34,874 bases of DNA, from the NCBI GenBank assembly GCA_013152355.1, contig JAADGO010000203.1, positions 1 to 34,874 of the forward strand, read 5' to 3'. Of the stretch, positions 3,213 to 28,179 are shown piece after piece. The stretch is from Chlorobiota bacterium (GTDB lineage Bacteria; Bacteroidota; Bacteroidia; Bacteroidales; Prolixibacteraceae). Position 1 is the first letter of the stretch. Each line of letters opens with the position of its first letter. Made by a program: the position numbers and the translations under genes. A model generated the notes under the pieces. That model was not told the origin of the DNA. It was given only the letters and a program-made list of their open reading frames with translations, and did no database searches.

Positions 3213-4721
3213 TTAGTTTGCAATAATCCCAAAATCATCATCATTTAAATTAAACTGGCTTAAAGTAGAGATACTTTTAGGTGGTAATTGAACTGTAATT
3301 ACTTTACCCTTTAATTGAGAATAAGATTTTATAGGGTTCAGTTTAAAATCCTTCTCTTTAAGAACCGGTTCTGTAACCTGATATAAATATAATTTGGTTT
3401 CATTATTCCCATTGATTTGTAGGTCAACACTAACCTTTTTATCGTTCTTATTAAGAATATAGATTGTTAATTCTCCTGAAGGGCTTTCAATTGTTTGGCA
3501 TAAAATATCCTGGCCACCATTAACCTTTGTTTCAATAACCCTTGAATTTTTTGCATTGAACCGGGTTATTATCCCGTAGCCGTAATAAGCGACTGGTTCG
3601 GCAACTACTTCTTTCAAATATTTTTTATTTTCAATGTCCCATGTACGGATAAGTTGCCATTGCCCATCCAGGTCTCCACGATTGGTAAAACTCCATCGGT
3701 TAAAGGCATGGACTCCAACATCCATCCCTCTCAGAATTGTTTCTAAATTTGAAAGAGCGGCATCAAAGGATTTGGGGCCTGAATTGCTACCTTCCCATCC
3801 TAAATTCATATTACCCATTTCTGATAAAAACATTGGCTTGTTTTTTTCTTTAGCCCATTTAGCCCATTCAGCTAGAATTTTTTGCTTTTCCTGATCCATC
3901 CCATGGTACGAATGAATGTCATAAGCCCCAATATATTCATCGAAGTCAATTTTATTTTTATCAAATATTGGCAAGTCTGTCCAGTCTGGTGCGGAGATAG
4001 GCAATTCAATCCCCCTGTCATTTAAAGCTCCTCTAACAGCTTTTAAAGCAGGTGTTAACGGAGCATCTTCAGGCCCGGTACTCCACCAACTGCCCCAATT
4101 CCCACCTGGGGGCTCATTGGTAATACATATCCATTTTATACAACTGTACTGTTTCTGTTTAAGCAAATAGGAAACTAAAGTGGAAATCCCGGTGGCAAAA
4201 TCATCTATTGATTTTGGGGCACTTAATAATGGCTGAACATCAGGAAAAGAATTCCATTTAACATTACTCCACATTTGTTGAAGAAAAACATCAACATTAT
4301 TTTCCTCGCACCAATCAAGGATATTATATAGGGCTATCATTTCTTCATTATCCCAGTCAAACTGGCCTTTTTCGGGTTCATACATCCTGGCACTTAATTC
4401 AACTCTTATCCAGTTGAGCCCTAGCCATTTAGCATGATCGTAAATTTGACTCCACGCCTCAGTGTCAGATACTGGAGGGTTTCCTCCCCATGCACTACCT
4501 CGTGAATTAACAGACCGTAAGGCCCACTTGTATTCTTTGCTTTCATCAATCTTTGCTTTGCTAATTGCATGCCAGGAGGCACCAATCCCCCCCTCCATTT
4601 GATATTTTACATTATCTCGATTAATTGAAATCGTTAAATTATCCACTGTGTTTTGATTACCATCGCATCCCGGAATTATAAGGATGCTTAATAAAATTAG
4701 TTGAAAGAATATCCTCTTCAT
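3213..4721 (-). CDS. Secreted clan GH-A glycoside hydrolase lipoprotein
   Basis: A 502-residue exported glycosidase. The N terminus is a lipoprotein signal ending ILIIPGC with Cys19 (the Pro two residues before it is atypical but tolerable), so it should be anchored in a membrane and face outward. Residues 45-390 read as a TIM barrel of clan GH-A. The acid/base candidate is E203 in ITNEPPG and the nucleophile is E301 in FLSEMGN, about 100 residues apart as in GH5, GH30 and GH39 enzymes. An aromatic-rich loop follows the first catalytic Glu (GNWGSWW). Residues 400-490 look like a C-terminal beta-sandwich. The exact GH family and substrate cannot be read from the motifs. There are no SusC/SusD or other carbohydrate genes beside it. 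Only 19 bp separate its ATG from the stop of a truncated sigma-factor gene upstream, so it is probably an orphan left from a former polysaccharide-utilization locus. Confidence 0.8.
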   Translation of the reverse strand: MKRIFFQLILLSILIIPGCDGNQNTVDNLTISINRDNVKYQMEGGIGASWHAISKAKIDESKEYKWALRSVNSRGSAWGGNPPVSDTEAWSQIYDHAKWLGLNWIRVELSARMYEPEKGQFDWDNEEMIALYNILDWCEENNVDVFLQQMWSNVKWNSFPDVQPLLSAPKSIDDFATGISTLVSYLLKQKQYSCIKWICITNEPPGGNWGSWWSTGPEDAPLTPALKAVRGALNDRGIELPISAPDWTDLPIFDKNKIDFDEYIGAYDIHSYHGMDQEKQKILAEWAKWAKEKNKPMFLSEMGNMNLGWEGSNSGPKSFDAALSNLETILRGMDVGVHAFNRWSFTNRGDLDGQWQLIRTWDIENKKYLKEVVAEPVAYYGYGIITRFNAKNSRVIETKVNGGQDILCQTIESPSGELTIYILNKNDKKVSVDLQINGNNETKLYLYQVTEPVLKEKDFKLNPIKSYSQLKGKVITVQLPPKSISTLSQFNLNDDDFGIIAN

Positions 4722-5098: not shown

Positions 5099-6568
5099 TC
5101 ATTTGATTTTAATCGTATCCAGCCAACCTCTAAAGTCAAAAAATTGAAAATCCTGTCGTTCACCGATTAACTGACCTAGTTTTTCTTTGGTACGGTCAAT
5201 AATAATCTTTTTTTTTCTTTCCGACATCAGGTTCGGATAATTGGAAAAAAAACCTAAAAGTAGCTTCTCAAAAGCCTGAGCCGATTGATTTTTCAAAACA
5301 TCACGTTTAAACGAACGGATTTCATAATCCAGGAAATCGTAATCTTTCATATCGAAATGAACTGCCAGTTTAAACAGACGAATACTGTTCAGCAAGGGCA
5401 AATCCTGAAACGACCGCCTGTTATTGGTAACCGGCAATAAGGCTTTAATTGCCTGCCGGTATTGTTTATTTCCATGATAAACGATTGCCGACTGAAAGCA
5501 AAATTCGGCCAACCCTATCGGCCTGAATTCATCCATTCTTAAATGTTGGTTCAGCTGATAGCCATTCAGATGTTCCAGAGCTTCTTTGTATCTTTTTTGA
5601 TCAGTTAAAATTATACTTTCAAAAAGGAAAACCGGTTGAAGAAAGACAGCTTGCTGTCTGGGATTTGATGTTTTAAGGCTTTTTATACGATTAATAAAAA
5701 ACTTCATTTCATCGTGGCGATTAAACAAACGCAGGTTCGACAAAATGCCCTTCAGATGATATAAATAATATTCAGGCGGATTATCCCACAAGTGACTGTT
5801 TTGCTCAAATAATTCATTCAGCTCATTGTAAAGTATCATACTCGACTTCTGGTTGCCGGTCATCATAAAATAGGCCGACTGGAAAAGCAAATGTATTTTT
5901 TGTCCTTCAAACGACTGGCGAATAAAACCGCTCACAGCCTGCAGTTCATTAAATGCCAGGTTTTTAAGCGACTCCTTATCCGCTTCGTTTTTCACCGCCC
6001 CCTGCTTAACCTGCCTGTGCCGGATGAGGTAGTAAAGTGAACAGTGGTTATCAATCGACCTCAACTGCCGTGAAATTCGTTCAATGTTGCCCTGTTTCTT
6101 TAAAAGTTCGTATTCCGTCATTGCCTGAAAATCAATCTGGCTTGCAAATTTTAATTCAAGGCGGGCCAGTTCCAGATAAATGGAAAACTTTTCATATTGA
6201 AGGGCTTCCTTTTTGAGTTTTTCAATCAGTTTAAAACAGGGGTCATAAAGATTTCGCCTGAATAACAATTTAACCTGCATAATGCCAAAATACAGCTCAT
6301 CTTCCCTGTTAGCTGAAAGGTTCTGATTAATGAGGGACTTAATCAATACATCATACAAATGCTTACAGGCAATGCCAAAACTTGCATTTGGCCTTTGCTT
6401 TAGGAATTCATCTTTAACCGAAATTCCTTCAGCCTTTTTCTGTACCAGCCGGTAAAGCAGCTGATAATCTTTAATTGCCCTATTCTCAGGATTTTGCATT
6501 TGAAAAATCCGTTTCTCAGGTTTACTCATCGAGTTAACCAGCACAATAAGTTGATCGAGCTTTGTCAT
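5099..6568 (-). CDS. Helical-repeat protein of unknown function
   Basis: I do not recognise this 489-residue protein. It has no signal peptide and no membrane segments, so it is probably cytoplasmic. The sequence is almost entirely amphipathic helices rich in Leu, Phe, Tyr, Lys and Arg, with periodic patterns such as LFNRHDEMKFFINRIKSL, EYYLYHLKGILSNLR and FCFQSAIVYHGNKQYRQAIKAL that resemble TPR-like alpha-alpha hairpins, especially from residue 230 to 430. No enzymatic motif or DNA-binding helix-turn-helix is evident. It starts at the ATG at 6568. It is transcribed divergently from the ribokinase operon across a 192-bp AT-rich spacer, which makes a regulatory or scaffolding link to that operon possible but unproven. 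The spacer on its 3' side (4909-5098) holds only the promoter of the sigma stump. Confidence 0.6.
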   Translation of the reverse strand: MTKLDQLIVLVNSMSKPEKRIFQMQNPENRAIKDYQLLYRLVQKKAEGISVKDEFLKQRPNASFGIACKHLYDVLIKSLINQNLSANREDELYFGIMQVKLLFRRNLYDPCFKLIEKLKKEALQYEKFSIYLELARLELKFASQIDFQAMTEYELLKKQGNIERISRQLRSIDNHCSLYYLIRHRQVKQGAVKNEADKESLKNLAFNELQAVSGFIRQSFEGQKIHLLFQSAYFMMTGNQKSSMILYNELNELFEQNSHLWDNPPEYYLYHLKGILSNLRLFNRHDEMKFFINRIKSLKTSNPRQQAVFLQPVFLFESIILTDQKRYKEALEHLNGYQLNQHLRMDEFRPIGLAEFCFQSAIVYHGNKQYRQAIKALLPVTNNRRSFQDLPLLNSIRLFKLAVHFDMKDYDFLDYEIRSFKRDVLKNQSAQAFEKLLLGFFSNYPNLMSERKKKIIIDRTKEKLGQLIGERQDFQFFDFRGWLDTIKIK

Positions 6569-6707
6569 AGGAATGTTTTAGAACATGACCATAAAATTTA
6601 TTAGTTTGAAAATATAATATTTAGAAATATCATTCTCAATATTAAATGCACTTTCATGCTATAATTACCATTAATATTTATTTTGAAATTATAAAAATAG
6701 ATTTAAT

Positions 6708-6730
6708 TTGGAAATATATTACTTTTCCAA
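6708..6730. promoter_or_regulatory. Inverted repeat, possible operator of the ribokinase operon
   Basis: TTGGAAA and TTTCCAA are perfect 7-bp inverted arms separated by 9 bp, 30 bp upstream of the rbsK ATG. The left arm overlaps TTAATTTG (6703-6710), a one-mismatch version of the -7 promoter box. A repressor bound here would block that promoter. A leader hairpin is the alternative reading. Confidence 0.35.
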
Positions 6731-6760
6731 AATGCATACATTCGATAAATATTCAAATTA

Positions 6761-7663
6761 ATGGAAAAGCGCAGAATACTTGTTGTTGGCAGTTCGAATA
6801 CTGATATGGTTATTCAGGTCCAAAAGTTTCCGGTACCCGGTGAAACCATCCTGGGTGGTAAGTTTTTTATGAATCCGGGAGGAAAGGGGGCAAACCAGGC
6901 AGTTGCCGCATCAAGGCTTGGCGGTTTGGTTACCTTTATTGGTAAAATTGGAGATGATATATTTGGCAAACAGGCTGTTCAGCTACTGGAAGATGAAGGA
7001 ATTAATGTCGATTTTGTAGGCGCCGACCGTGAACAACCCAGCGGCGTTGCCATGATCACAGTTGATGCAAGCGGCGAAAACTCCATAGTTGTGGCACCCG
7101 GTTCAAATAGTACTTTATTACCTGCTGATTTTGACCGTTCAGGAGAGGAAATAAATGGGTGTGATATTGTTTTAATGCAACTTGAAATTCCTATTAAAAC
7201 TGTTGAATACATTGCAAAAAAAGTAACAGCACTGGATAAAAAGGTAATTCTTAACCCTGCTCCGGCAGCCCGGTTAAGCGATGATCTTTTAAAAGCATTA
7301 TCGATTATCACCCCTAACGAAACGGAAGCAGAATTGCTTACCGGAATTAAAGTGAGAGATGAAGCCTCTACCAGGCAGGCTGCATTGAAATTAAAGGGTA
7401 AAGGAGTGGATATAGTAATTATTACCTTAGGCAAAAACGGTGCATTTGTGCTGGCTGATGATTTTACCGGGCAAATTCCTGCTCCGGTAGTGAATGCTGT
7501 TGATACCACCGCGGCAGGTGATACCTTTAACGGGGCTCTTGCAGTTGGACTTTCAGAAGGAAATACCATACAGGATGCCGTACAATTTGCCTGTAACGCA
7601 GCTTCTATTTCAGTAATGCGCCTGGGGGCTCAATCATCAATACCATCACGAAATGAGTTGTGA
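6761..7663 (+). CDS. rbsK: Ribokinase (PfkB family)
   Basis: Phosphorylates D-ribose to ribose 5-phosphate with ATP in the cytoplasm, feeding the pentose phosphate pathway and PRPP synthesis. The protein has 300 residues (E. coli RbsK 309). The first PfkB signature is the GG-rich NPGGKGANQAVAASRLGG at residues 38-55. The second is DTTAAGDTFNGAL, with catalytic Asp254 preceded by AAG in the anion-hole position, the same variant as in E. coli RbsK. N14/D15 near the N terminus (GSSNTDMV) fit the sugar-binding site. It is the first gene of a four-gene plus-strand run with gaps of 49, 24 and 16 bp, followed by an ADP-ribosylglycohydrolase, a nucleoside hydrolase and a permease. This supports ribose as the real substrate rather than another PfkB sugar or nucleoside. 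Confidence 0.9.
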   Translation: MEKRRILVVGSSNTDMVIQVQKFPVPGETILGGKFFMNPGGKGANQAVAASRLGGLVTFIGKIGDDIFGKQAVQLLEDEGINVDFVGADREQPSGVAMITVDASGENSIVVAPGSNSTLLPADFDRSGEEINGCDIVLMQLEIPIKTVEYIAKKVTALDKKVILNPAPAARLSDDLLKALSIITPNETEAELLTGIKVRDEASTRQAALKLKGKGVDIVIITLGKNGAFVLADDFTGQIPAPVVNAVDTTAAGDTFNGALAVGLSEGNTIQDAVQFACNAASISVMRLGAQSSIPSRNEL

Positions 7664-7712
7664 TTTAAAAAAGAAATTTAATAACTTAAGTCCACGAATA
7701 ATACCTACTACC

Positions 7713-9278
7713 ATGAAAAAAATAGTTGCCATTCTTTTTACAGTAGTTATATTTATTGCCTGTCAAAACAATCAGGCCACACAACAGGAAGATTTAAAGA
7801 AAGTGATTACCAGGGCTGAACTGAAGGATAAAATCAAGGGAGGCTGGGCCGGACAGGTGATTGGCTGTACTTTTGGAGGGCCAACCGAGTTCCATTATAA
7901 AGGCTCGATGATCCAGGATTACCATCCTATCCCCTGGAATGAATCACTATGCCGGTGGTGGTACGAAAATTTCCCCGGCTTATATGATGATGTGTACATG
8001 GACCTCACTTTTGTAGATATTTTCGAAAAGGAAGGACTGGACGCACCGGCATCGGCTCATGCCCTGGCTTTTGCCAATGCCGAATACCAGCTCTGGCATG
8101 CCAACCAGGCTGCCCGGTACAATATATTAAACGGAATCATGCCGCCTGAATCGGGGCACTGGACCAAAAACCCGCATTCCGAAGATATTGACTTTCAGAT
8201 AGAGGCAGATTTTGCAGGCCTGATGGCACCCGGAATGGTGAATACCTCTTCAGAGATTTGCGATAAGGTCGGGCACATCATGAATTACGGCGATGGTTGG
8301 TACGGTGGGGTTTATGTGGCTGCCATGTATGCTTTGGCTTTTGTTTCCGGTGATATCAATTATGTTGTGGAAGAAGGGCTGAAGAGTATTCCCCGGGAAT
8401 CGGAATTTTACCGCTGCATCAGCGATGTTATTATGTGGCACAAACAATATCCCGATGACTGGAAAGAGGCCTGGTTCGAAGTTGAAAAGAAATGGTCATC
8501 GGACGTGGGCTGCCCCGATGGGGTTTTTTCTGCTTTTAATATCGATGCAAAAATAAATGCAGCCTATATTGTCATAGGGCTTTTATATGGCCAGGGCAAC
8601 TATACAAAAACCCTGGAAATCAGTACCCGCTGCGGCCAGGACTCAGACTGCAACCCGGCTTCTGCGGGAGGAATCCTGGGAACCATGCTGGGCTATTCCA
8701 ATATTCCCGAATACTGGAAAAAACCTGTTTATCCTGTGGAGGATATGGCCTTTAAATACACGGACATGTCGCTAAACGATGTTTACGAAATCGGCACTAA
8801 ACATGCGCTTCAGGTATTGGAAAAGAATGGTGCGGATATTAGCGGCCCGGAAATTGAGATTCCTGTTCAGGAAATAAAACCGGTAGCATTGGAAGTTGGT
8901 TTTAAAGGCCATTATCCGGTGAAAATAGAAAGGATTAGGAAAAACCTTACTGTTGAAAATCCTGAACTCGAATTTGAATTTGAAGGAATTGGTTTTGCTC
9001 TGAAAGGTAGAGTAAACAAATTAAAAGGCTGGGCTGCCGAAGATGCTACTTCTAATATGGAAACATGGATAGATGGCAAGCTGGTTGACTCCTTCGGAAT
9101 GCCTTCTGATAGGCGGGCCAGAAGACACGAGGTGGCATGGGCTTTTGAACTTCCGGAAGGAAAACATAAGGTGAAAATTAAAGTATTAAATCCAAAAGCA
9201 GATTATACTATCAGGGCGGAAGATTTAATTGTATATAGTTCGTCTAAAGTAGCGAATGCCTGGAATACAGGAAATTAG
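7713..9278 (+). CDS. Exported lipoprotein of the ADP-ribosylglycohydrolase family
   Basis: A 521-residue enzyme with the ADP-ribosylglycohydrolase (DraG/ARH, PF03747-type) fold that hydrolyses N- or O-ribosidic bonds using a binuclear metal site. The start is the ATG at 7713: it gives a proper lipoprotein signal (MKKIVAILFTVVIFIAC, lipid Cys17), whereas an upstream ATG at 7653, overlapping rbsK, would add 20 non-signal residues. The family pattern is visible as GGWAGQVIGCTFGGP at 43-57, metal ligands in YDDVYMD (D92, D93), EDIDFQIEAD (157-166), YGDGWYGG (193-199) and GQDSDCNPA (D310, D312, standing for the usual DxDT/N). Residues about 410-520 form an extra beta-rich domain. Family members are usually cytoplasmic, so lipid anchoring and linkage to a nucleoside hydrolase and ribokinase suggest catabolism of external ADP-ribose or ribosides rather than reversal of protein modification. 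The substrate is inferred. Confidence 0.83.
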   Translation: MKKIVAILFTVVIFIACQNNQATQQEDLKKVITRAELKDKIKGGWAGQVIGCTFGGPTEFHYKGSMIQDYHPIPWNESLCRWWYENFPGLYDDVYMDLTFVDIFEKEGLDAPASAHALAFANAEYQLWHANQAARYNILNGIMPPESGHWTKNPHSEDIDFQIEADFAGLMAPGMVNTSSEICDKVGHIMNYGDGWYGGVYVAAMYALAFVSGDINYVVEEGLKSIPRESEFYRCISDVIMWHKQYPDDWKEAWFEVEKKWSSDVGCPDGVFSAFNIDAKINAAYIVIGLLYGQGNYTKTLEISTRCGQDSDCNPASAGGILGTMLGYSNIPEYWKKPVYPVEDMAFKYTDMSLNDVYEIGTKHALQVLEKNGADISGPEIEIPVQEIKPVALEVGFKGHYPVKIERIRKNLTVENPELEFEFEGIGFALKGRVNKLKGWAAEDATSNMETWIDGKLVDSFGMPSDRRARRHEVAWAFELPEGKHKVKIKVLNPKADYTIRAEDLIVYSSSKVANAWNTGN

Positions 9279-9302
9279 ATTGAAATTGTTAAAAATTTAA
9301 TT

Positions 9303-10295
9303 ATGAAGAATATAAAAATCATTACGAGTTGTTGTTTTATTTTTTTATTGCTGTTTGGTTCGTTATGCACATCTGCCCAGAAGTACAAATTTTTGAGCGA
9401 TGCTGAACGATTGCAATTGTTGGAACCGCCACAGGGCAAAGTGGACATTGTTTTTGATACCGATACATACAACGAAATAGACGACCAGTTTGCGCTGGTT
9501 TATGCCCTTCTTTCAAAGGAAAAAATGAATGTGAAAGCTGTTTATGCGGCCCCGTTCCTGAATAACCGTTCGACCAGTGCCGGGGAAGGGATGGAACTCA
9601 GTTACAATGAGATACTTAGAATCCTGAAGATGATGAACCTTTCTTATGAAGGTTTTGCATTTAAGGGAAGCCGCCATTTCCTGGCCGATGGGGAAACACC
9701 ACAGGAAAGTGAGGCTGCCAAACACCTGGTTACATTGGCTGCAAACTACGATAAAGATAATCCATTGTATGTTTTGTCCGTTGGTGCCATTACCAATGTT
9801 GCCAGTGCTATATTGATGGACCCGGGTATAACTGAAAGAATAGTAGTGGTTTGGCTGGGTGGCAATGGCCCGCACTGGCCTCATAATTACGAATTTAATT
9901 TTAAGCAGGATTTGCACGCTTCCCGTTTAATTTTTGACAGTGGCGTTCCTTTTGTGCAAATTACCTGTACACCCGTAACCACACATTTACACACAACTGT
10001 TCCCGAAATGGAAAAAAACCTGGCAGGGAAAGGTGAATTGGCTGAATACCTTTTGAAAATATTCAAAGATTATCGCAAAGATCATTTTGGCTGGTCCAAG
10101 GTATTATGGGATATTTCAACTATTGCGTGGGTGGTGAACAATGAGTGGATTCCAACATATATTCAACATGCTCCTATTATCACTGATAATTACACCTATA
10201 GCTCTGATCCGCGCAGGCACTTGATGAGGTCGGCTTATTTTATCCATCGCGACCCGATTTTCCGGGATTTATTTACAAAAATCAATCATAAATAA
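9303..10295 (+). CDS. Exported nucleoside hydrolase (IUNH family)
   Basis: A 330-residue inosine-uridine-preferring nucleoside hydrolase-like enzyme that splits ribonucleosides into base and ribose. Residues 1-25 form a signal peptide with likely signal peptidase I cleavage after TSA. The cysteine in it lacks a small residue at -1, so I do not call a lipoprotein. The calcium-binding cluster is DTDTYNEIDDQFAL (D52, D54, D60, D61), the longer-spaced variant of the classical DTDPGIDD. Further family marks are SVGAITNVASA (residues about 159-169) and VVVWLGGNGPHW (177-188). It lies 24 bp after the ADP-ribosylglycohydrolase gene and 16 bp before the permease gene. Export to the periplasm is unusual for this mostly cytoplasmic family and fits a scavenging pathway that releases ribose outside the inner membrane. 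The nucleoside preference cannot be read. Confidence 0.85.
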   Translation: MKNIKIITSCCFIFLLLFGSLCTSAQKYKFLSDAERLQLLEPPQGKVDIVFDTDTYNEIDDQFALVYALLSKEKMNVKAVYAAPFLNNRSTSAGEGMELSYNEILRILKMMNLSYEGFAFKGSRHFLADGETPQESEAAKHLVTLAANYDKDNPLYVLSVGAITNVASAILMDPGITERIVVVWLGGNGPHWPHNYEFNFKQDLHASRLIFDSGVPFVQITCTPVTTHLHTTVPEMEKNLAGKGELAEYLLKIFKDYRKDHFGWSKVLWDISTIAWVVNNEWIPTYIQHAPIITDNYTYSSDPRRHLMRSAYFIHRDPIFRDLFTKINHK

Positions 10296-10311
10296 TCAGT
10301 CATAAATCATA

Positions 10312-11307
10312 ATGTTTATTGTATCAACATACACTGCAGCTATAATTATGAGCATAGTAACCATGCTATGCTGGGGTTCGTGGGCGAATACCCAAAAACT
10401 GGCTGAGAAATCATGGCGTTTTGAATTGTTTTACTGGGACTATGTAATCGGCATAGTACTGATGGCACTTGTATTTGCATTTACCCTTGGCAGCAATGGA
10501 ACAGCAGGGCGTTCTTTCCTGACTGACCTGAACCAGGCTGATTGGCAAAACATTGGGAATGCTTTTCTCGGAGGAGTTATTTTTAATGCGGCCAATATTT
10601 TGGTGGTAGCAGCTATTGCTATTGCCGGTATGTCGGTGGCATTCCCAATTGGTATCGGTATTGCCCTTGTTCTGGGTGTTTTGATTAACTACCTGGCTTT
10701 GCCGCAGGGAAACGCGTTTTGGCTGTTCTCCGGTGTTGCTTTAGTTACCCTGGCCATTGTTTTTGATGCTTTTGCCTACAGGAAAAAAGCTATTCAGGTA
10801 CAAAAAGTCCCAGCCAAAGGCATCTTATTATCAGTTATCGGAGGTATTTTAATGGCCATGTTTTACAGGTTTGTAGCCAGTTCTATGATCACCAATTTTG
10901 AGCAGCCCCAGGCCGGATTATTAACGCCATATACTGCGGTTGTCATTTTTGCCATTGGTATTTTAATCAGCAATGTACTATTCAATACCATTTTAATGAA
11001 AAAGCCTGTGGAAGGCGAAGCGGTTTCATACAGGGACTATTTCTCCGGGGCATTAAAAGAACATTTAACAGGTGTTTTAGGTGGAGTGATCTGGTGTGTT
11101 GGTATGTCATTCAGTATTATTGCTGCCGGAAAGGCTGGTTTTGCCATTTCCTATGGTTTAGGACAAGGTGCAACACTGATAGCTGCACTTTGGGGCGTTT
11201 TTATCTGGAAAGAATTTAAAGGGTCACAAGGCACACATGGGCTGATTACGGCCATGTTTATTTGTTTTGTGATTGGCCTTGCTATGATTGTTTATGCCGG
11301 AATGTAA
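10312..11307 (+). CDS. DMT-superfamily sugar permease (GRP/RhaT-like), probable ribose importer
   Basis: An integral membrane protein of 331 residues with about ten hydrophobic segments spread along its length in two five-helix halves, the layout of drug/metabolite-superfamily transporters. The motif MLCWGSWANTQKLA near the N terminus and the late segment SYGLGQGATLIAALWGVFIWKEFKG resemble the GRP glucose/ribose porter and ureide permease branch rather than EamA drug exporters. It is the last gene of the ribokinase operon, 16 bp after the nucleoside hydrolase, and is followed by a gene-free stretch. From that position the most likely cargo is the ribose or base released by the two exported hydrolases. 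The direction and substrate are inferred from context only. Confidence 0.75.
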   Translation: MFIVSTYTAAIIMSIVTMLCWGSWANTQKLAEKSWRFELFYWDYVIGIVLMALVFAFTLGSNGTAGRSFLTDLNQADWQNIGNAFLGGVIFNAANILVVAAIAIAGMSVAFPIGIGIALVLGVLINYLALPQGNAFWLFSGVALVTLAIVFDAFAYRKKAIQVQKVPAKGILLSVIGGILMAMFYRFVASSMITNFEQPQAGLLTPYTAVVIFAIGILISNVLFNTILMKKPVEGEAVSYRDYFSGALKEHLTGVLGGVIWCVGMSFSIIAAGKAGFAISYGLGQGATLIAALWGVFIWKEFKGSQGTHGLITAMFICFVIGLAMIVYAGM

Positions 11308-11374
11308 ATTTGCAGTGGGCTGGGTGCTTTAAACTACGAACTTCAAGTATCGAGTACTTTTTCATCCCATACTT

Positions 11375-11567
11375 AGATACTGTTTAAATTTTATCCCTGC
11401 CAAACAAAAGGCAGGCTTTGGCTTGTTTTTACACCTTAAGCCCTCATGCGGCATTAAAATTTTCTTAATCCCGAGGGTTCGGAGCCACGTCAATTTTGCC
11501 TTGCCTGAGAATTTAATCCATCAACCCCGATTGCCTCGGGGTTAAGAAAACAAATTTTAAAATCTCA
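11375..11567 (+). repeat. MITE-like dispersed repeat, copy A
   Basis: This 193-bp copy fills most of the gene-free stretch 11308-11652. It aligns along its length with copies at 19030-19213 (inverted) and 27991-28179. Shared marks in order are the left end ACTGTTTAAATTTTAT, a hairpin CCTGCC/GGCAGG (11396-11401 and 11410-11415), CTTGTTTTT, TTAAGCCCTCATG, CAATTTTGCCTTGCCTGAG and a right end related to ATAAAATTTAACAGT. This copy has a diverged right end and carries an extra perfect hairpin, AACCCCGA/TCGGGGTT at 11523-11543. No matching target duplication was seen at its flanks. Confidence 0.7.
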
Positions 11568-11595
11568 GAAGTTTTTCCAATTTATTATGTTTTTC

Positions 11596-11617
11596 AGCAC
11601 TTTTGGGAGTGCTTTTT
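11596..11617 (+). terminator. Rho-independent terminator-like hairpin before purH
   Basis: AGCACT / AGTGCT is a perfect 6-bp stem with a 6-nt loop followed by TTTT. It lies 290 bp after the permease stop and immediately before the purH -7 promoter box. It is suited to stopping read-through from the ribokinase operon and the repeat. Confidence 0.5.
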
Positions 11618-11619
11618 AC

Positions 11620-11627
11620 TATCTTTG
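11620..11627 (+). promoter_or_regulatory. -7 promoter box of purH
   Basis: TATCTTTG matches the Bacteroidota TAnnTTTG element and lies 25 bp before the purH ATG. No clear TTTG sits at the expected -33 distance, so only the -7 box is called. Confidence 0.5.
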
Positions 11628-11652
11628 CGCTTTAATAATTATTTAACAATAA

Positions 11653-13242
11653 ATGGCTGGGTTTAAAAAGATTACATCGGCATTAATATCAGTTTACCAT
11701 AAAGAAAAACTGGATAGGATTGTAAAAAAACTGGAAAATCTGGGAGTTGATATTTATTCAACCGGCGGAACGTATAATTTTATCAACGACCTGGGAGTTA
11801 ATGTAAAAGCTGTGGAAAGCCTAACCGGCTACCCCTCTATTTTAGGCGGGCGTGTGAAAACATTGCATCCAAAAGTTTTTGGAGGGATACTGGCAAGGCG
11901 CGAAAATAAAGGAGATTTAGGTCAGTTGTCGGAGTATGGGATTCCGGCTATTGATTTAGTTATTGTCGACCTTTACCCCTTTGAAGAAACTGTTGCAAGC
12001 GGCGCCGGCGAGCAGGACATTATTGAAAAAATAGATATTGGAGGCATTGCATTAATAAGAGCTGCTGCCAAGAATTATAAAGATGTACTGATAGTTTCTT
12101 CCATGGGGCAATATTCAAGGTTGCTTGATTTACTGGAAGAGAAGGATGGGGGGGCATCTATTGAAGACCGGAAGAAATTTGCCGGGGAAGCCTTTGCCGA
12201 GTCATCTAACTATGACACTGCGATTTTCAACTATTTTAATATAAACGGGGAAGGTAAAGCCCGGATTAGCCTCAACGAAGGACAGGAGCTCAGGTACGGT
12301 GAAAATCCACACCAGGGCGCAACTTTTTATAAGTTTAATAATTCCCCGTCAAACGTTACCCTTGCAAATGCAAAGGTCTTACAAGGGAAGGCATTGTCGT
12401 ATAATAATATGCTCGATGCCGATGCAGCCTGGAAATCAGCCAGCGATGCCTATCATTCTGTTTCCCATTTAAAAACGAAAGTTGCAGTTTCGGTTATTAA
12501 ACATTTAAACCCATGTGGGTTGGCGGTTACCAATAATATTTTAAGGTCGCTGGAGCTTGCCTGGGCAGGAGACCCGATAAGTGCATTCGGCAGTATTGTC
12601 TGTTTTACCGAACCGGTGGGCAAAGAAATTGCCGAATGGTTTGCCAAGAAGTTTATTGAAATTATTATTGCCCCTGATTTTACAGCAGATGCATTAGAGG
12701 TACTGGGGAAAAAGAAGAATCTGCGGCTGTTGTCAATCCCTGTCAAAGAAGAGGTTACACGCGAGAAGTTATTCCGTTCGGTTAGTGGTGGGATGCTTGT
12801 GCAGGATGAAGACGAAGGGCTTGAAACAGAATTTCGGAATGTCACTAAAATTAAGTTTGGCGAAAACAAGCTAAACCTCACCAAATTTGGGGTTGTCGCT
12901 TGTAAGCATTTAAAGAGTAATGCTATTGCTCTGGTAACTGAAAACGAGGACGGTTCGTTCTGGTTGACCGGGGCGGGGATGGGGCAGCCCAACCGCCTGG
13001 ATAGTTTGAGGTATTTGACAATCCCACGTTTTAATATGAAAGAAGGGGTTAAGATAGAGGACTCGGTATTAATTTCCGATGCCTTTTTCCCGTTCCGGGA
13101 CAGCATTGAGGCTGCCAATGAATATGGGGTAAAATATATTGTTGAGCCGGGAGGAAGTATCCGCGATAATGAAGTTATTGAAGCTTGTGATGAATTTGGT
13201 ATTGCGATGGTTTTTACCGGCATACGGCATTTTAAACATTAA
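11653..13242 (+). CDS. purH: Bifunctional AICAR formyltransferase / IMP cyclohydrolase
   Basis: Catalyses the last two steps of de novo purine synthesis, AICAR to FAICAR with 10-formyl-THF and then ring closure to IMP. The 529-residue length equals the classical E. coli enzyme. The N-terminal 190 or so residues form the MGS-like IMP cyclohydrolase domain (STGGTY, LGGRVKTLHPKVFGGIL). The C-terminal AICAR transformylase domain shows RYGENPHQ near residue 215 and the catalytic Lys-His pair in KHLNPCGLAV, then DPISAFGSIV. The substitution of Leu after KH (usually Thr or Ala) is mild. Start at the ATG at 11653, 25 bp after a TATCTTTG promoter box. The gap to mreB is only 53 bp, so purH and the cell-shape operon may share transcripts. 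Confidence 0.96.
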   Translation: MAGFKKITSALISVYHKEKLDRIVKKLENLGVDIYSTGGTYNFINDLGVNVKAVESLTGYPSILGGRVKTLHPKVFGGILARRENKGDLGQLSEYGIPAIDLVIVDLYPFEETVASGAGEQDIIEKIDIGGIALIRAAAKNYKDVLIVSSMGQYSRLLDLLEEKDGGASIEDRKKFAGEAFAESSNYDTAIFNYFNINGEGKARISLNEGQELRYGENPHQGATFYKFNNSPSNVTLANAKVLQGKALSYNNMLDADAAWKSASDAYHSVSHLKTKVAVSVIKHLNPCGLAVTNNILRSLELAWAGDPISAFGSIVCFTEPVGKEIAEWFAKKFIEIIIAPDFTADALEVLGKKKNLRLLSIPVKEEVTREKLFRSVSGGMLVQDEDEGLETEFRNVTKIKFGENKLNLTKFGVVACKHLKSNAIALVTENEDGSFWLTGAGMGQPNRLDSLRYLTIPRFNMKEGVKIEDSVLISDAFFPFRDSIEAANEYGVKYIVEPGGSIRDNEVIEACDEFGIAMVFTGIRHFKH

Positions 13243-19029: not shown

Positions 19030-19213
19030 AGAAACTGTATAAATTTTATTTTTGTAAATAGTTTTTAGCAGATTAAGCTCTCAGGTAATACGAAATTGGT
19101 ATAGTTCCGGGTATTCGCAGGTTAAAGGAATTTAACATAGCATGAGGGTTTAAGGTGCAAAAACAAACCAAAGCCTGCCTTTCGTTTGGCAGGGATGAAA
19201 ATTGGACAGTCTT
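19030..19213 (-). repeat. MITE-like dispersed repeat, copy B (inverted)
   Basis: This 184-bp copy is in reverse orientation and takes up most of the gene-free stretch 18941-19295. Read on the minus strand it has the left end GACTGTCCAATTTTCATCC, the hairpin CCTGCC/GGCAGG (arms at 19188-19193 and 19174-19179 on the plus strand) and a right end ATAAAATTTATACAGTTTC, which is the inverted repeat of the left end. It aligns with copy A through TGCACCTTAAACCCTCATG and ACCTGAGAGCTTAATC. It lies inside the predicted untranslated leader of the KamA-like gene. Confidence 0.7.
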
Positions 19214-22948: not shown

Positions 22949-24259
22949 CTATGCTGTCCCTTCAGCCTGTTTTATATACCACTCAAGTGGATGTGATGTC
23001 GGACGTTCAATAGGCATGCCATACAGCCTGTCGGTTATCAATGATGCTAACACGCCTAATGCCCTTGAAACACCAAAAAGTACTGTATAAAATGTATATT
23101 CTTTAATACCATAGTGGTACAATAGCGAACCACTATATGCGTCTACATTGGGCCATGGATTGTTGACCTTGCCTGTCTCTTTCAGTACTCCGGGCACAAC
23201 CTCATATAATGTATTTACGATATTAATCAGGTTGTCATTTTTAATATACTTCTCGGCAAACTCTTTTTGCGCGGTAAACCGTGGGTCGGTTTTACGTAAT
23301 ACAGCATGGCCATAACCGGGGATTACCCTTCCGTCCTTCAGCGTTTTATGGCAGTAGTCTGCAATTTGCTCTTTTGTGGGGTTTTCGGTATAAAGGGATT
23401 TCTGCATATCGAAAATCCAGTTGATAACTTCCTGGTTGGCGTAGCCGTGTAGTGGGCCTGCCAATCCGAGCATTGCTGCTGAATAAGCATAATACGGATT
23501 ACTCAAAGCCGATCCTACCAGGTGAGCTGTATGTGCCGAGACATTGCCTCCTTCGTGGTCGGCATGGATAACCATATAAAGGCGTAATAACCTTTTTATT
23601 TCTTCGCTGTCGTGCCCCATCATGTGCGCCAGGTTTCCTGCCCAGTCGAGGTGTGGGTTTGGTTCAATATGGTTGCCGTTATGGAATTCGCGCCTGTAAA
23701 TATATGCAGCAATCCGCGGCAGGCGTGCAATCAGGTTCATTACATCCTCATAGGTAGTATCCCAATAATATTTTTTATTGACCCCCGCACGGTATGCTTT
23801 CTGAAAAATTGATTCGGTTGCCATACTTAGGATAGCCATACTGAACTGGGTCATTGGCTTTGAGTTCCTTGGCATTGATTCTATCACATCAAACGTATGC
23901 TGAGGTACATGAGACCTTGTTGCCCAGTCTTTTGATATGTTTAAAACATCATCTCTATCCGGGATCTCACCGACCAACATCAGGTAGAATAGCCCTTCGG
24001 GAAGGGGTTCTCCTTCTTTGTTCAGTCGTGGTAGTTTTTCACGGAGTTCAGGGATCGAATAACCTCTGAACCTAATTCCTTCATTGGCATCAAGTTTGGA
24101 TGTGTCGGTTACCAGGCTCGGGACTCCTTTCATTCCGGTGAGTACCTGTCCAATTGTTACCTGTGCGATTACCTTATCGGAATGGTCTTTTTTTAACCGT
24201 TGGTAATCGACCGTCCACTTACTTGCTTTTTGGTAAAATCTGTTCTTTATATATTCCAT
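22949..24259 (-). CDS. gltA: Citrate synthase, mitochondrial type
   Basis: Condenses oxaloacetate and acetyl-CoA to citrate. It has 436 residues. The catalytic residues sit in NVSAHT, GPLHGYANQEV, GYGHAVLRKTDPR and NVDAYSG (the last with the catalytic Asp). The first domain, with DANEGIRFRGYSIPE and EPLPEGLFYLMLVGEIP, is far closer in pattern to eukaryotic mitochondrial citrate synthase than to E. coli GltA. No E. coli-like NADH allosteric N-terminal domain is recognisable. It is the last gene of the minus-strand set acn-icd-gltA, 99 bp beyond the ancestral icd stop. It starts at the ATG at 24259 and ends close to the FucP-like gene. Confidence 0.95.
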   Translation of the reverse strand: MEYIKNRFYQKASKWTVDYQRLKKDHSDKVIAQVTIGQVLTGMKGVPSLVTDTSKLDANEGIRFRGYSIPELREKLPRLNKEGEPLPEGLFYLMLVGEIPDRDDVLNISKDWATRSHVPQHTFDVIESMPRNSKPMTQFSMAILSMATESIFQKAYRAGVNKKYYWDTTYEDVMNLIARLPRIAAYIYRREFHNGNHIEPNPHLDWAGNLAHMMGHDSEEIKRLLRLYMVIHADHEGGNVSAHTAHLVGSALSNPYYAYSAAMLGLAGPLHGYANQEVINWIFDMQKSLYTENPTKEQIADYCHKTLKDGRVIPGYGHAVLRKTDPRFTAQKEFAEKYIKNDNLINIVNTLYEVVPGVLKETGKVNNPWPNVDAYSGSLLYHYGIKEYTFYTVLFGVSRALGVLASLITDRLYGMPIERPTSHPLEWYIKQAEGTA

Positions 24260-24358
24260 AATTGTTCTAATATAATTTTATTAATTAATTTCAATTACCT
24301 TTTCTGCGTATTTCTGCGCAATCAGCGTGCCATTATTTTCTTGCAGATTCCGCAGGTA

Positions 24359-25593
24359 TTATTTCAGTTTTTTTTGCAGATTCTCCTCCAGCGCAGCCAG
24401 GAATTTCTCTGTTGTCAGGTAATGCTCCTCTGCTCCTCTTTAAGGTTACTTCCGTGGATGATTAATGCCAGGTCTTTTGTCATTTTACCACTTTCTATTG
24501 TTTCTATACAAACCTGTTCCAGTTTATTGGCAAAATCAACTAATTCCGGGGTCTCATCAAGTTCTCCGCGGAAAGCCAAACCCCTTGTCCATGCAAAAAT
24601 TGACGCGATTGGGTTCGTTGAAGTTGGATTCCCTTTTTGGTGCTGCCGGTAGTGCCTTGTAACCGTTCCATGGGCAGCCTCGGCTTCCATTATTTTCCCA
24701 TCGGGCGTTATCAACGTTGAGGTCATCAATCCTAATGAGCCAAAGCCCTGCGCCACTATATCGCTTTGCACATCTCCGTCATAATTTTTACATGCCCATA
24801 CAAATCCACCTTCCCATTTCAAGGCTGCTGCAACCATGTCGTCAATCAGGCGGTGTTCGTATGTGATTCCTGCTGTTGCAAACTGTTCCTTATACTCGGT
24901 TTCAAAAACCTCCTGGAATATGTCTTTAAACCGCCCATCGTATTTCTTCAATATAGTATTTTTAGTTGACAGATACAATGGCCACTTCTTACTTAATGCC
25001 TGATTCATACACGAACGGGCAAAACCACGAATAGATTCATCGGTATTGTACATGGCCATGGCTACCCCGTCTCCCTGATAATCGTACACTTCATGCGTTA
25101 TTGGTTCGCTGCCGTCTTCAGGAGTGAACGTAATAGTTAATTTACCTTTCCCCTTAGTTAAAAAATCGGTAGCCCTGTATTGGTCTCCAAATGCATGGCG
25201 TCCGATACAAATAGGGTATTTCCAGCCCGGTACCAGGCGTGGTACGTTTTTAATTAATATGGGTTCGCGGAATACTGTACCCCCTAATATATTTCGAATC
25301 GTCCCGTTTGGCGATTTCCACATTTGCTTTAACTTAAATTCTTCAACCCGGGCTTCGTCAGGAGTGATGGTGGCACACTTAACCCCAACACCATATTTCT
25401 GAATAGCCAAAGCAGAATCAATCGTGATCTGATCATTTGTTGCTTCCCGGCTTTCAATACTCAGGTCGTAATATTTCAAATCAATATCAAGGTAAGGGAG
25501 GATAAGCCTTTCTTTAATAAATTCCCAGATTACCCGGGTCATTTCATCACCATCCAGTTCTACGACAGGATTTTTAACTTTGATTTTTTGCAT
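24359..25593 (-). pseudogene. icd: NADP-dependent isocitrate dehydrogenase (type II), frameshifted near its 3' end
   Basis: Oxidizes isocitrate to 2-oxoglutarate. The sequence follows the eukaryotic IDH1/IDH2 type almost word for word ([52 protein letters not shown]). As written, the frame from the ATG at 25593 stops at 24415 after 392 residues, ending [10 protein letters not shown]. Just before the end the 8-mer GCTCCTCT (plus strand) is repeated in tandem at 24424-24439. Removing one copy restores 408 residues ending [15 protein letters not shown] followed by LQKKLK, with a stop at 24361-24359. That tail matches the C-terminal helix of human IDH1. So 16 native-length residues and the helix are lost or altered, while all catalytic residues stay. 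It may still be active; a sequencing or assembly error is possible. Lies between acn and gltA. Confidence 0.88.
24424..24439. repeat. 8-bp tandem duplication inside icd
   Basis: GCTCCTCT occurs twice in direct succession (24424-24431, 24432-24439). The unit length is not a multiple of three, so two copies put the last icd codons out of frame and one copy restores a family-like C terminus. Confidence 0.85.
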
Positions 25594-25690
25594 TTTGATT
25601 TTTTTTCTTACTGGTTTCGCTGACCATCGCTAAAATTAATTAACTTTTCGTTCTTTATTGATAATCAGCATATAATTTATTTTACTAATA

Positions 25691-27949
25691 CTATTTCTGT
25701 TTTCTGATTAAATTTAATGCAGATCCGGCCTTAAACCATTCTATTTGCTGTGAATTATAGGTATGGTTTAATTTAATTAAATTTTTAGTGCCATCGGCAT
25801 GTACTACTTCAACTGTTATGGGTTTCCCGGGTTGGAAATCAACCAGGTTTAAGAAATTGAAGGTGTCATCTTCCTGGATCAGGTTATAGTCGTCCTCATT
25901 GGCAAAAGTCAGTGCCAGCATACCCTGCTTTTTCAGGTTTGTTTCGTGGATACGGGCAAATGATTTGACAATAACCGCCTTCACTCCAAGGTGCCGCGGT
26001 TCCATGGCGGCATGTTCGCGTGACGACCCTTCACCATAGTTATGGTCGCCAACTATAACCGTTGGGATATTGAACTTTTTATAATACCGTTGTACTTTAG
26101 GTACTTCGTCATATTCGCCGGTTAATTGGTTTTTGACCTTATTGGTTTCACTGTTGAAGGCATTGACTGCCCCAATCAGCATATTATTTGAAATATTATC
26201 CAGGTGGCCACGGAAACGTAACCATGGCCCGGCCATTGAAATGTGGTCGGTAGTACATTTGCCAAGTGCTTTGATAAGTAGCTTTGCCCCTGTTATATTT
26301 TTCCCGTCCCATGGTTCAAATGGCGAAAGCAGTTGTAGCCTTTTTGATTTAGGGTCGACAGAAATTTCAATTCCTGAGCTATCAGCTGCAGGAGCCTGGA
26401 AGCCACTGTCCTCCACATCAAACCCGTTGGCAGGCAACTCTTCGCCTGACGGAGGTGATAGTTTTACCTTTTCCCCGTTTTTATTGATCAATGTATCGGT
26501 AATAGGGTTAAAATCCAGTTTGCCTGCAATTGCCAGTGCTGTAACTATCTCGGGCGAAGATACAAATGCATGGGTATTGGGGTTTCCGTCAGCACGTTTC
26601 GAAAAGTTCCTGTTAAAGGAATGTATAATGGTATTTTTCTCCTGCTTGTCGGCACCTTCGCGGGCCCACTGCCCAATGCAAGGGCCACAGGCATTGGCAA
26701 ATACTTTTCCACCTATTTCATTGAAGATGGCAATAAATCCATCTCTTTCGATAGTATACCTGACCTGTTCGGACCCTGGGGTAATTGTAAATTCGGCATT
26801 TACTGTTAAGCCTTTTTCAACAGCTTGTTTTGCAATGGATGCAGCCCTTGAGATGTCTTCATAAGAAGAATTGGTACAACTGCCAATCAGCCCTACTGAG
26901 ATTTTTAATGGCCAGCCGTTCTCTTTGGCTGTTTCTGCCATTTTTGAGATGGGGGTTGCACGGTCGGGGGTGAAAGGCCCGTTGATATGCGGCTCCAGCT
27001 CCGAAAGGTTAATCTCTATTACCTGGTCGAAATATAAATCCGGGTTTTCGTATACTTGCGGGTCGGCTTCAAGATGTTCGGCAATCCCATTGGCTAGTTT
27101 TGCAACCTCTTCCCTTCCGGTTGCTTTGAGGTAACGTTCCATACTTGTATCATAAGCAAACAATGAAGTAGTAGCCCCTACTTCAGCGCCCATGTTGCAG
27201 ATAGTCCCTTTCCCTGTTGCCGACAGCGATTCTGCCCCTTCCCCAAAATATTCAATTATTGCCCCTGTTCCTCCTTTTACAGTCAGTATTCCGGCAATTT
27301 TCAGGATAATATCTTTTGGTGCAGCCCAACCATTCAATTTGCCCGTAAGCTTAACTCCAATCAGTTTGGGCATTTTCAATTCCCAGGGCATACCAGCCAT
27401 AACATCAACAGCATCGGCACCGCCAACACCAATAGCGACCATACCAAGCCCACCTGCATTTGGCGTATGTGAGTCTGTACCTATCATCATCCCCCCGGGG
27501 AAGGCATAATTCTCTAAAATTACCTGGTGGATGATCCCTGCACCGGGTTTCCAGAAGCCAATACCATATTTATTTGAAACCGACTCAAGGAAATAGTATA
27601 CTTCTTTGTTGGCATTTTTTGCAACATCCAGGTCGGCCAACCCGTTTACCTGTGCCTGTATCAAGTGGTCGCAATGAACGGTAGCGGGGACCTCAGTAGC
27701 TGGTTTCCCTGAATTTATAAACTGAAGCAATGCCATTTGTGCCGTTGCATCCTGCATGGCAACCCTGTCGGGTGTAAAATCTACATACGCCCCCCCTCGT
27801 TTAAATTTTGTTAACCCCTCAGGATCAAACAGGTGGGAGTATAAAACTTTTTCAGCATAAGTTAGCGGATGCCCAAGCTTACTTTTGGTTTTTTTAATTC
27901 GCTCAGGAAGCCTGGAATAGACTTCTTTTATCAGACTTAAGTCAAACAT
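25691..27949 (-). CDS. acn: Aconitate hydratase, mitochondrial type
   Basis: Isomerizes citrate and isocitrate with a [4Fe-4S] cluster. It has 752 residues, close to mitochondrial aconitase. Cluster cysteines are in GSCTNSS (about residue 355) and ACGPCIGQW (about 419-427). The active-site stretches are visible as [39 protein letters not shown] and, in the C-terminal swivel domain, [15 protein letters not shown]. The N terminus [30 protein letters not shown] resembles mitochondrial aconitase rather than E. coli AcnA or AcnB. First gene of acn-icd-gltA with a 97-bp gap to icd. A MITE-like repeat (copy C) begins 42 bp upstream of its ATG, so its promoter lies either in that short gap, in the repeat or beyond it. 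Confidence 0.96.
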
Positions 27950-27990: not shown

Positions 27991-28179
27991 GAGAGGCTGT
28001 TCTAATCTCATCCTTGCCTGCCAGACAAGGCAGGTTTTGATTTGTTTTTGCGTTTTAAGCCCTCATCCTACATTAAAATTTCCTAAACCCTCGAGTATCC
28101 GGGACTGTGTCAATTTTGCCTTGCCTGAGGCCTTAATACATACAATAACCTTTCACAAGAATAAAATTTAACAGTCTCT
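27991..28179 (+). repeat. MITE-like dispersed repeat, copy C, with target duplication
   Basis: This 189-bp non-coding element lies between acn and the broken Crp/Fnr gene. The ends GAGAGGCTGTT and AACAGTCTCT are inverted repeats, and both sides are flanked by GAATATTT. The internal hairpin CCTGCC/GGCAGG (28017-28022, 28029-28034) is kept although its loop is shortened to 6 nt. TTGTTTTTGC, TTTTAAGCCCTCAT and GTGTCAATTTTGCCTTGCCTGAGG match copies A and B. There is no open reading frame of note. The rest of the gene-free stretch (28188-28474) is AT-rich and I see nothing in it beyond a weak TATATTG promoter-like box near 28427. Confidence 0.75.

Follow-up and report, generated by a model that had tools for sequence, protein, structure and literature searches.

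A probable compact ribose-utilization operon encoding an exported ADP-ribosylglycohydrolase-fold protein in a member of the Prolixibacteraceae

Introduction

Ribose utilization in Bacteroides thetaiotaomicron requires BT2803-2809, the Rus polysaccharide utilization locus (PUL), for which RusR is named as the regulator and RusT is proposed to be the importer of free ribose (PMC12596196). The Rus PUL is activated by ribose (PMC12548429), and the ribose-utilization system (RUS) enables the use of nucleotides and nucleosides as carbon sources (PMC11699363). The genes listed for the Rus region encode ribokinase, SusC/SusD-type proteins, a DUF4969 protein, a nucleoside hydrolase (NH) and a permease of the drug/metabolite transporter (DMT) type (PMC10434189). 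Here, we analyse a four-gene operon at positions 6761-11307 of contig JAADGO010000203.1 (assembly GCA_013152355.1) from a member of the Prolixibacteraceae and compare it with this system; the whole stretch of 34,874 nucleotides is referred to as the window. The 2020 abstract of Glowacki et al. is said to describe several RUS variants across the Bacteroidetes, with ribokinases as the part needed for colonization.

The second gene of the operon encodes a protein with the fold of the ADP-ribosyl hydrolases (ARH), hereafter the ADP-ribosylglycohydrolase-fold protein (ARGH). A transporter, an ARH-fold protein and a sugar kinase are likewise encoded by adjacent genes in Escherichia coli yegTUV, of which YegT is a predicted nucleoside:H+ symporter (PMC10819704). 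In contrast to the window ARGH, YegU has 334 amino acids, starts straight in the ARH domain, lacks a C-terminal sandwich and retains the motifs TDDT, NGAAMR and GGDTDT. We rejected yegTUV as a direct precedent because YegU, despite the similar logic of the gene set, is of the canonical ARH type and hence a different enzyme. An ADP-ribosylglycohydrolase family protein is also described in a heme-uptake locus of Prevotella intermedia, with no ribose genes named in the passage concerned (PMC10434189). No paper that links an exported ADP-ribosylglycohydrolase to ribose catabolism was among the matches listed from a limited open-access literature, which does not prove that none exists.

Results

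The operon is very probably a compact RUS without a SusC/SusD outer-membrane pair of its own, in which ribose would be freed by an exported NH and the exported ARGH, imported by a permease and phosphorylated by a ribokinase (RbsK), with a divergently encoded protein of the BT2802 family switching the operon. Exported ribose release combined with import and a kinase is a known kind of system, and this assignment is well supported. The gene identities, the export signals, the fold and the conserved neighbourhood are direct findings, and the substrates, the direction of transport and the regulation are inferred. Like the RUS of B. thetaiotaomicron as far as its gene list is given, the window has a ribokinase, an NH, a DMT-type permease of the RusT kind and, alongside the operon, a BT2802-family gene that scores below the curated cut-off of its family. 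Unlike that system, it has a single ribokinase, an ARGH lipoprotein and no SusC/SusD pair, none being found between 5099 and 11307 in the ORF and Pfam annotation of the window (ORF, open reading frame); by gene list only, the B. thetaiotaomicron locus has a DUF4969 protein and the window operon an ARGH. Because SusC/SusD is also absent from the operon in two related loci, L155 and L163, we did not take the pair as defining a RUS.

The four ORFs lie on the plus strand in the order ribokinase, ARGH lipoprotein, NH and permease with intergenic gaps of 49, 24 and 16 bp, and their positions, gaps and family matches bear out the original prediction of four tightly spaced genes of these families. The ribokinase gene (6761-7663, plus strand) matches TIGR02152 with 374 bits, above the cut-off of 299.65, and solved ribokinases match it with expect values (E) down to 2.9e-76; its product shares 60% identity with the one in L155 (genome G252 of the same order) and 69% with the one in L033 (Prolixibacteraceae metagenome-assembled genome JAIBEY010000093.1). 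The ARGH gene (7713-9278, plus strand; PF03747 ADP_ribosyl_GH, E 8.1e-40) encodes a lipoprotein of 521 residues when the ATG at 7713 is taken as the start, the longest ORF opening at 7653 and overlapping the ribokinase stop. It is followed by the NH gene (9303-10295, plus strand) and the permease gene (10312-11307, plus strand). The predicted lipoprotein signal with Cys17 is present on the ARGH, and the NH, for which a signal peptide had been predicted, has a hydrophobic N-terminus. The genome, which is 98.4% complete, contains a single PF03747 match and a single PF01156 match at E ≤ 0.001, both within the operon.

A further gene, which the original prediction had overlooked, diverges from the operon (5099-6568, minus strand). 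Its product, a probable operon regulator for which we use the label RusR-like, matches NF058569, the NCBIfam model 'BT2802 family ribose utilization protein', over nearly its full length (E 1.7e-114, 383.6 bits against a curated cut-off of 550) and is the sole match to this model in the genome; BT2802 itself we take to be RusR. Relatives of this gene stand at the equivalent position in L025, L033 and L155 with 45, 45 and 31% identity, respectively, and the L155 counterpart reaches 677 bits, above the cut-off. The divergent intergenic region of 192 bp (6569-6760, without strand) is, from the gene layout, presumed to contain the promoter or operator. A promoter scan of 6400-11700 gave 14 candidates compared with a mean of 13.7 for shuffled sequence and thus no excess, and the pattern TAnnTTTGY had no match inside 6569-6760. 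Terminator-like sites numbered 11, with 6.0 expected.

The neighbourhood of the operon is conserved far above chance expectation. A scan with three ARGH sequences yielded at least 383 relatives; the counts below use the 80 most similar to the window ARGH and are therefore biased to close relatives. The nearest of these 80 belong to Mariniphaga/Prolixibacteraceae-type bins, with up to 70% identity, and the subfamily also occurs in bins titled Aminicenantes, Acidobacteriota and Neomarinimicrobiota. Within 2.5 kb and on the same strand, RbsK was present at 46 of the 80 loci, the permease at 38, both at 36, an NH-cluster gene at 19 and all three at 10; the NH count rests on the linkage-built cluster 3, which also holds proteins of 574-961 amino acids, and the PF01156 check covered four proteins of five members or near members. 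A BT2802-like gene was found at most 3.5 kb away at 12/80 loci, with matches of 81-407 bits that may include paralogues, and SusC at most 6 kb away at 12/80. Less than 2.5 kb was available on one side at 30 loci; of the 50 loci whose flanks were complete, 32 had ribokinase and 25 had ribokinase together with the permease.

The original prediction hinged on conservation of the gene order in relatives, and the exact order of the window, that is the divergent BT2802-family gene followed by RbsK-ARGH-NH-permease, recurs in L155 and L033, with L025 being the same until its contig ends. A search of 247 genomes of the order with NF058569 matched 27, six of them above the cut-off, and the nine best of the 33 other places (seven above the cut-off in six genomes, two below) were used to examine the neighbourhood from the side of this gene. 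Ribokinase was present at all nine, ARGH at five (L155-L159), NH at four (L155, L160, L162 and L163), SusC at five (L156-L159 and L162) and the permease at five (L155 and L160-L163); because several of these stretches end inside the cluster, absences there are soft. Across 148 genomes of the phylum, 18 matched ARGH at all, and the close type (more than 50% identity over nearly the full length) occurred in three, the window genome counted. The gene set thus recurs in the company of this ARGH, which is itself rare across the phylum. The arrangement had been called uncommon, which holds for this type of ARGH but not for its pairing with ribokinase and permease, common where the ARGH is present (36/80).

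The window NH belongs to the PF01156 family (IU_nuc_hydro, E 6.1e-20) and has the metal (calcium)-site aspartates D52, D54, D60, D61 and D270, which are invariant in 6/6 aligned sequences, i.e. the window NH and five distant relatives. Identity to its best matches is no higher than 24-27%.

The permease resembles those of RUS loci and is a probable ribose importer of the inner membrane. It is 61% identical to the L155 permease, 74% to that of L033 and 55-74% across L033, L155, L162 and L163, in all of which the permease is adjacent to ribokinase; we assigned it to the RusT kind through 60-61% identity to the BT2802-anchored permeases of L155 and L162. The top Pfam match is the ureide permease family (PF07168, E 3e-21), ahead of Sugar_transport (PF06800, E 2.3e-09), and the match to TIGR00776 is far below its cut-off. 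This ranking would fit a permease that carries nucleosides, bases or another sugar, in which case the exported hydrolases would serve base salvage and ribose would be a by-product. We consider this improbable, given the ribokinase in the operon, the close similarity to ribokinase-adjacent permeases and the proposal that RusT of B. thetaiotaomicron carries free ribose (PMC12596196). This type of permease occurs in 5/148 genomes of the phylum, the window genome counted, and at the four other places ribokinase is adjacent in three, ARGH in one and NH in one.

Several observations weigh against the assignment of the operon to a compact RUS. The BT2802-family score of the divergent gene lies below the curated cut-off, ribokinase is absent within 2.5 kb at 34/80 ARGH loci, and 18 of the 50 loci with full flanks have neither ribokinase nor permease. 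Of the two other close ARGHs, found in 147 further genomes, one (L003) has none of the gene set in its 4.5 kb, and the other (L004) has the order ribokinase-ARGH-permease without an NH. An ARGH stands at only one of the four permease-anchored places, and L164 among them has none of the gene set. Finally, the window NH is not orthologous to the NHs of its nearest relatives (best E of 0.059 for L025 and 0.33 for L155, and no match at E 10 for L033), so the substrate range may differ between loci.

Unlike the NH, the ribokinase, the ARGH and the permease share 55-74% identity with their counterparts in L025, L033 and L155 (the L025 contig has no permease). The motif of the NH slot is DTDTYNEIDD in the window (DTDTYNEIDDQ in its longer form), and DTDLGPDYDD, DCDLGDDIDD and ETDIGNDVDD are found across related loci. 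L155 and L033, which are like the window in gene order including the divergent gene, carry the subtypes DTDLGPDYDD and DTDMGPDYDD, respectively, with no significant similarity to the window NH. NHs of differing types have come to occupy the slot, a replacement that would fit selection for the liberation of ribose from nucleosides, the specificity differing between types.

The ARGH is an exported protein of the ARH fold with an additional domain. By a crude pattern test, 45 of 71 ARGHs have a lipobox-like signal, 26 a hydrophobic N-terminus only and none neither, a count that includes L036, whose ARGH begins at a contig edge without its true N-terminus. In an AlphaFold2 model based on 71 sequences (mean predicted local distance difference test 92, predicted template modelling score 0.90), the ARH domain at about 31-370 superimposes on ARH3 (6g1p) with a Z of 32.6 and a root-mean-square deviation (rmsd) of 2.5 over 298 residues. 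The C-terminal beta-sandwich at about 399-510 resembles the N-terminal sandwich of the CE2 esterase 2waa (Z 9.6, rmsd 2.7, 99 residues) and, weakly, CBM36 and CBM35.

The acidic residues E59, D92, D93, D310 and D312 are invariant in 71/71 aligned ARGHs. Fold and acidic metal ligands are shared with human/fish ARH3, DraG and ARH1. The window ARGH differs from these proteins in being exported, in having Tyr91 and Cys313 as metal-site residues, in the absence of the N-G-x-A-M-R loop and in its extra C-terminal beta-sandwich. The subfamily does not have [ST]-D-D and D-x-D-[ST], which we take to define the metal site of ADP-ribosyl hydrolases: all 71 sequences have Tyr91-Asp-Asp aligned to Thr-Asp-Asp(-Thr) of YegU (T-D-D-T is common to YegU and ARH3) and Asp-x-Asp-Cys313 aligned to Asp-Thr-Asp-Thr of ARH3 and YegU. 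Metal-binding motifs had been predicted to be intact, which proved right for the NH and for the acidic positions of the ARGH but not for these two Thr residues.

In place of the N-G-x-A-M-R loop, which is canonical in YegU and ARH3 and retained as G-A-A-M-R in MJ1187, the subfamily has I-D-[FY]-Q-I-E-[AS]-D with E164 at the Arg position, and Q162, E164 and D166 are invariant in 71/71. This placement comes from a 12-sequence MAFFT alignment and is sequence-based rather than a structural superposition; the ARGH profile, compared with two canonical sequences, aligned both metal motifs and left the middle loop unaligned. In ARH3 the loop and the Thr residues presumably serve ADP-ribose (ADP contact) and metal binding. 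Because intermediate motifs occur in distant PF03747 proteins of the phylum, the change of motif belongs to a wider branch and does not reflect decay of the window ARGH.

In the original prediction, ribose came from ADP-ribosylated material, NAD breakdown products or nucleosides, with the ARGH taken to attack ADP-ribose or ADP-ribosylated substrates extracellularly before ribose import. The clear ARH fold and the invariant acidic residues speak for this view. Known ARH-family enzymes release ADP-ribose and leave it intact without freeing ribose, so that further enzymes would be needed, and the operon encodes none. Because of this product and of the altered metal site and loop, ADP-ribose is an unlikely substrate of the ARGH, and we regard extracellular ADP-ribose processing as highly unlikely; the comparison of active sites weakens the case for ADP-ribose or NAD breakdown as the main substrate. 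Tyr and Cys could still bind a metal, and activity on ADP-ribose may thus be retained. The ARGH is more likely to be an exported ribosidase than an ADP-ribose hydrolase.

The riboside cut by the ARGH would be nucleoside-like or, as the C-terminal sandwich and loci with glycan enzymes suggest, a ribofuranosyl glycan. In the latter case the ARGH would be a ribofuranosidase that attacks ribose-bearing glycans or further O-ribosides instead of nucleosides, effectively a glycoside hydrolase whose tail binds carbohydrate. Consistent with this, the sandwich resembles domains of CE2 esterases and, more distantly, carbohydrate-binding families, ARGH genes follow SusC/SusD in the four BT2802-anchored loci L156-L159, and glycan enzymes accompany ARGH in L048 (sulfatase and alpha-L-rhamnosidase) and L039 (apiosidase-like protein), with genes of the same clusters in L056. 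The window operon has no such glycan enzyme and no SusC/SusD and pairs its ARGH with an NH, and jelly-roll domains, being widespread, are no proof of a ligand; we consider a glycan-directed ARGH a minority possibility.

In L156-L159, two or more ARGH paralogues stand in tandem after SusC/SusD, the first of which has about 660-670 amino acids and reaches no more than 358-377 bits with the ARGH profile.

Other features of the window include a glycoside hydrolase gene (3213-4721, minus strand) that adjoins the BT2802-family gene and for which no ribose link was shown; its product has a lipoprotein-like N-terminus, a GH5-type match in the catalytic part and a GH30-type match at the C-terminus. An intergenic repeat, dispersed in the genome and at most about 150 bp long, is present at 11380-11530 (plus), directly downstream of the permease gene, at 28017-28141 (plus) and at 19071-19209 (minus); genome-wide it occurs at 15 places at E ≤ 0.001 including the query, the other copies being 75-94% identical and some of them partial. 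No Rfam family reached its gathering score within the window. Adjacent genes at 22952-27949 (minus strand) encode citrate synthase, a protein of the isocitrate/isopropylmalate dehydrogenase family and aconitase.

Discussion

In the compact RUS that we propose, nucleosides or other small ribosides would enter the periplasm, where the NH and the membrane-anchored ARGH would each free D-ribose from different classes of ribosides. With no SusC/SusD in the operon, these ribosides would presumably be of a size that general porins admit. The permease would then move ribose across the inner membrane for conversion to ribose 5-phosphate by the ribokinase, and the divergent BT2802-family protein would sense ribose or a derivative and switch the operon. 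The course originally predicted, with ribose freed beyond the inner membrane, imported and phosphorylated, agrees with the known RUS. A RUS had already been described, so the suggestion that the genes could define a small salvage pathway went too far; the original observation is confirmed and its pathway logic is right, and its novelty was overstated.

The ARGH subfamily could represent a new enzyme class, a tentative proposal to which we give somewhat less than an even chance. It would comprise exported ARH-fold ribosidases with a Tyr-Asp-Asp/Asp-x-Asp-Cys metal site and a replaced loop, which would have abandoned ADP-ribose in favour of simple ribosides or ribofuranosyl glycans and been retained with genes for ribose import and a kinase in many Bacteroidota loci.

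To the RUS-type operons for ribose scavenging, the locus would add one that lacks a SusC/SusD pair of its own and is retained outside the gut Bacteroides. It also raises a concrete question, namely the true substrate of an exported ARH-fold enzyme that is ribokinase-adjacent in 46 of the best 80 of at least 383 related loci. Because the family is named 'ADP-ribosylglycohydrolase', such genes are probably annotated with the wrong substrate.

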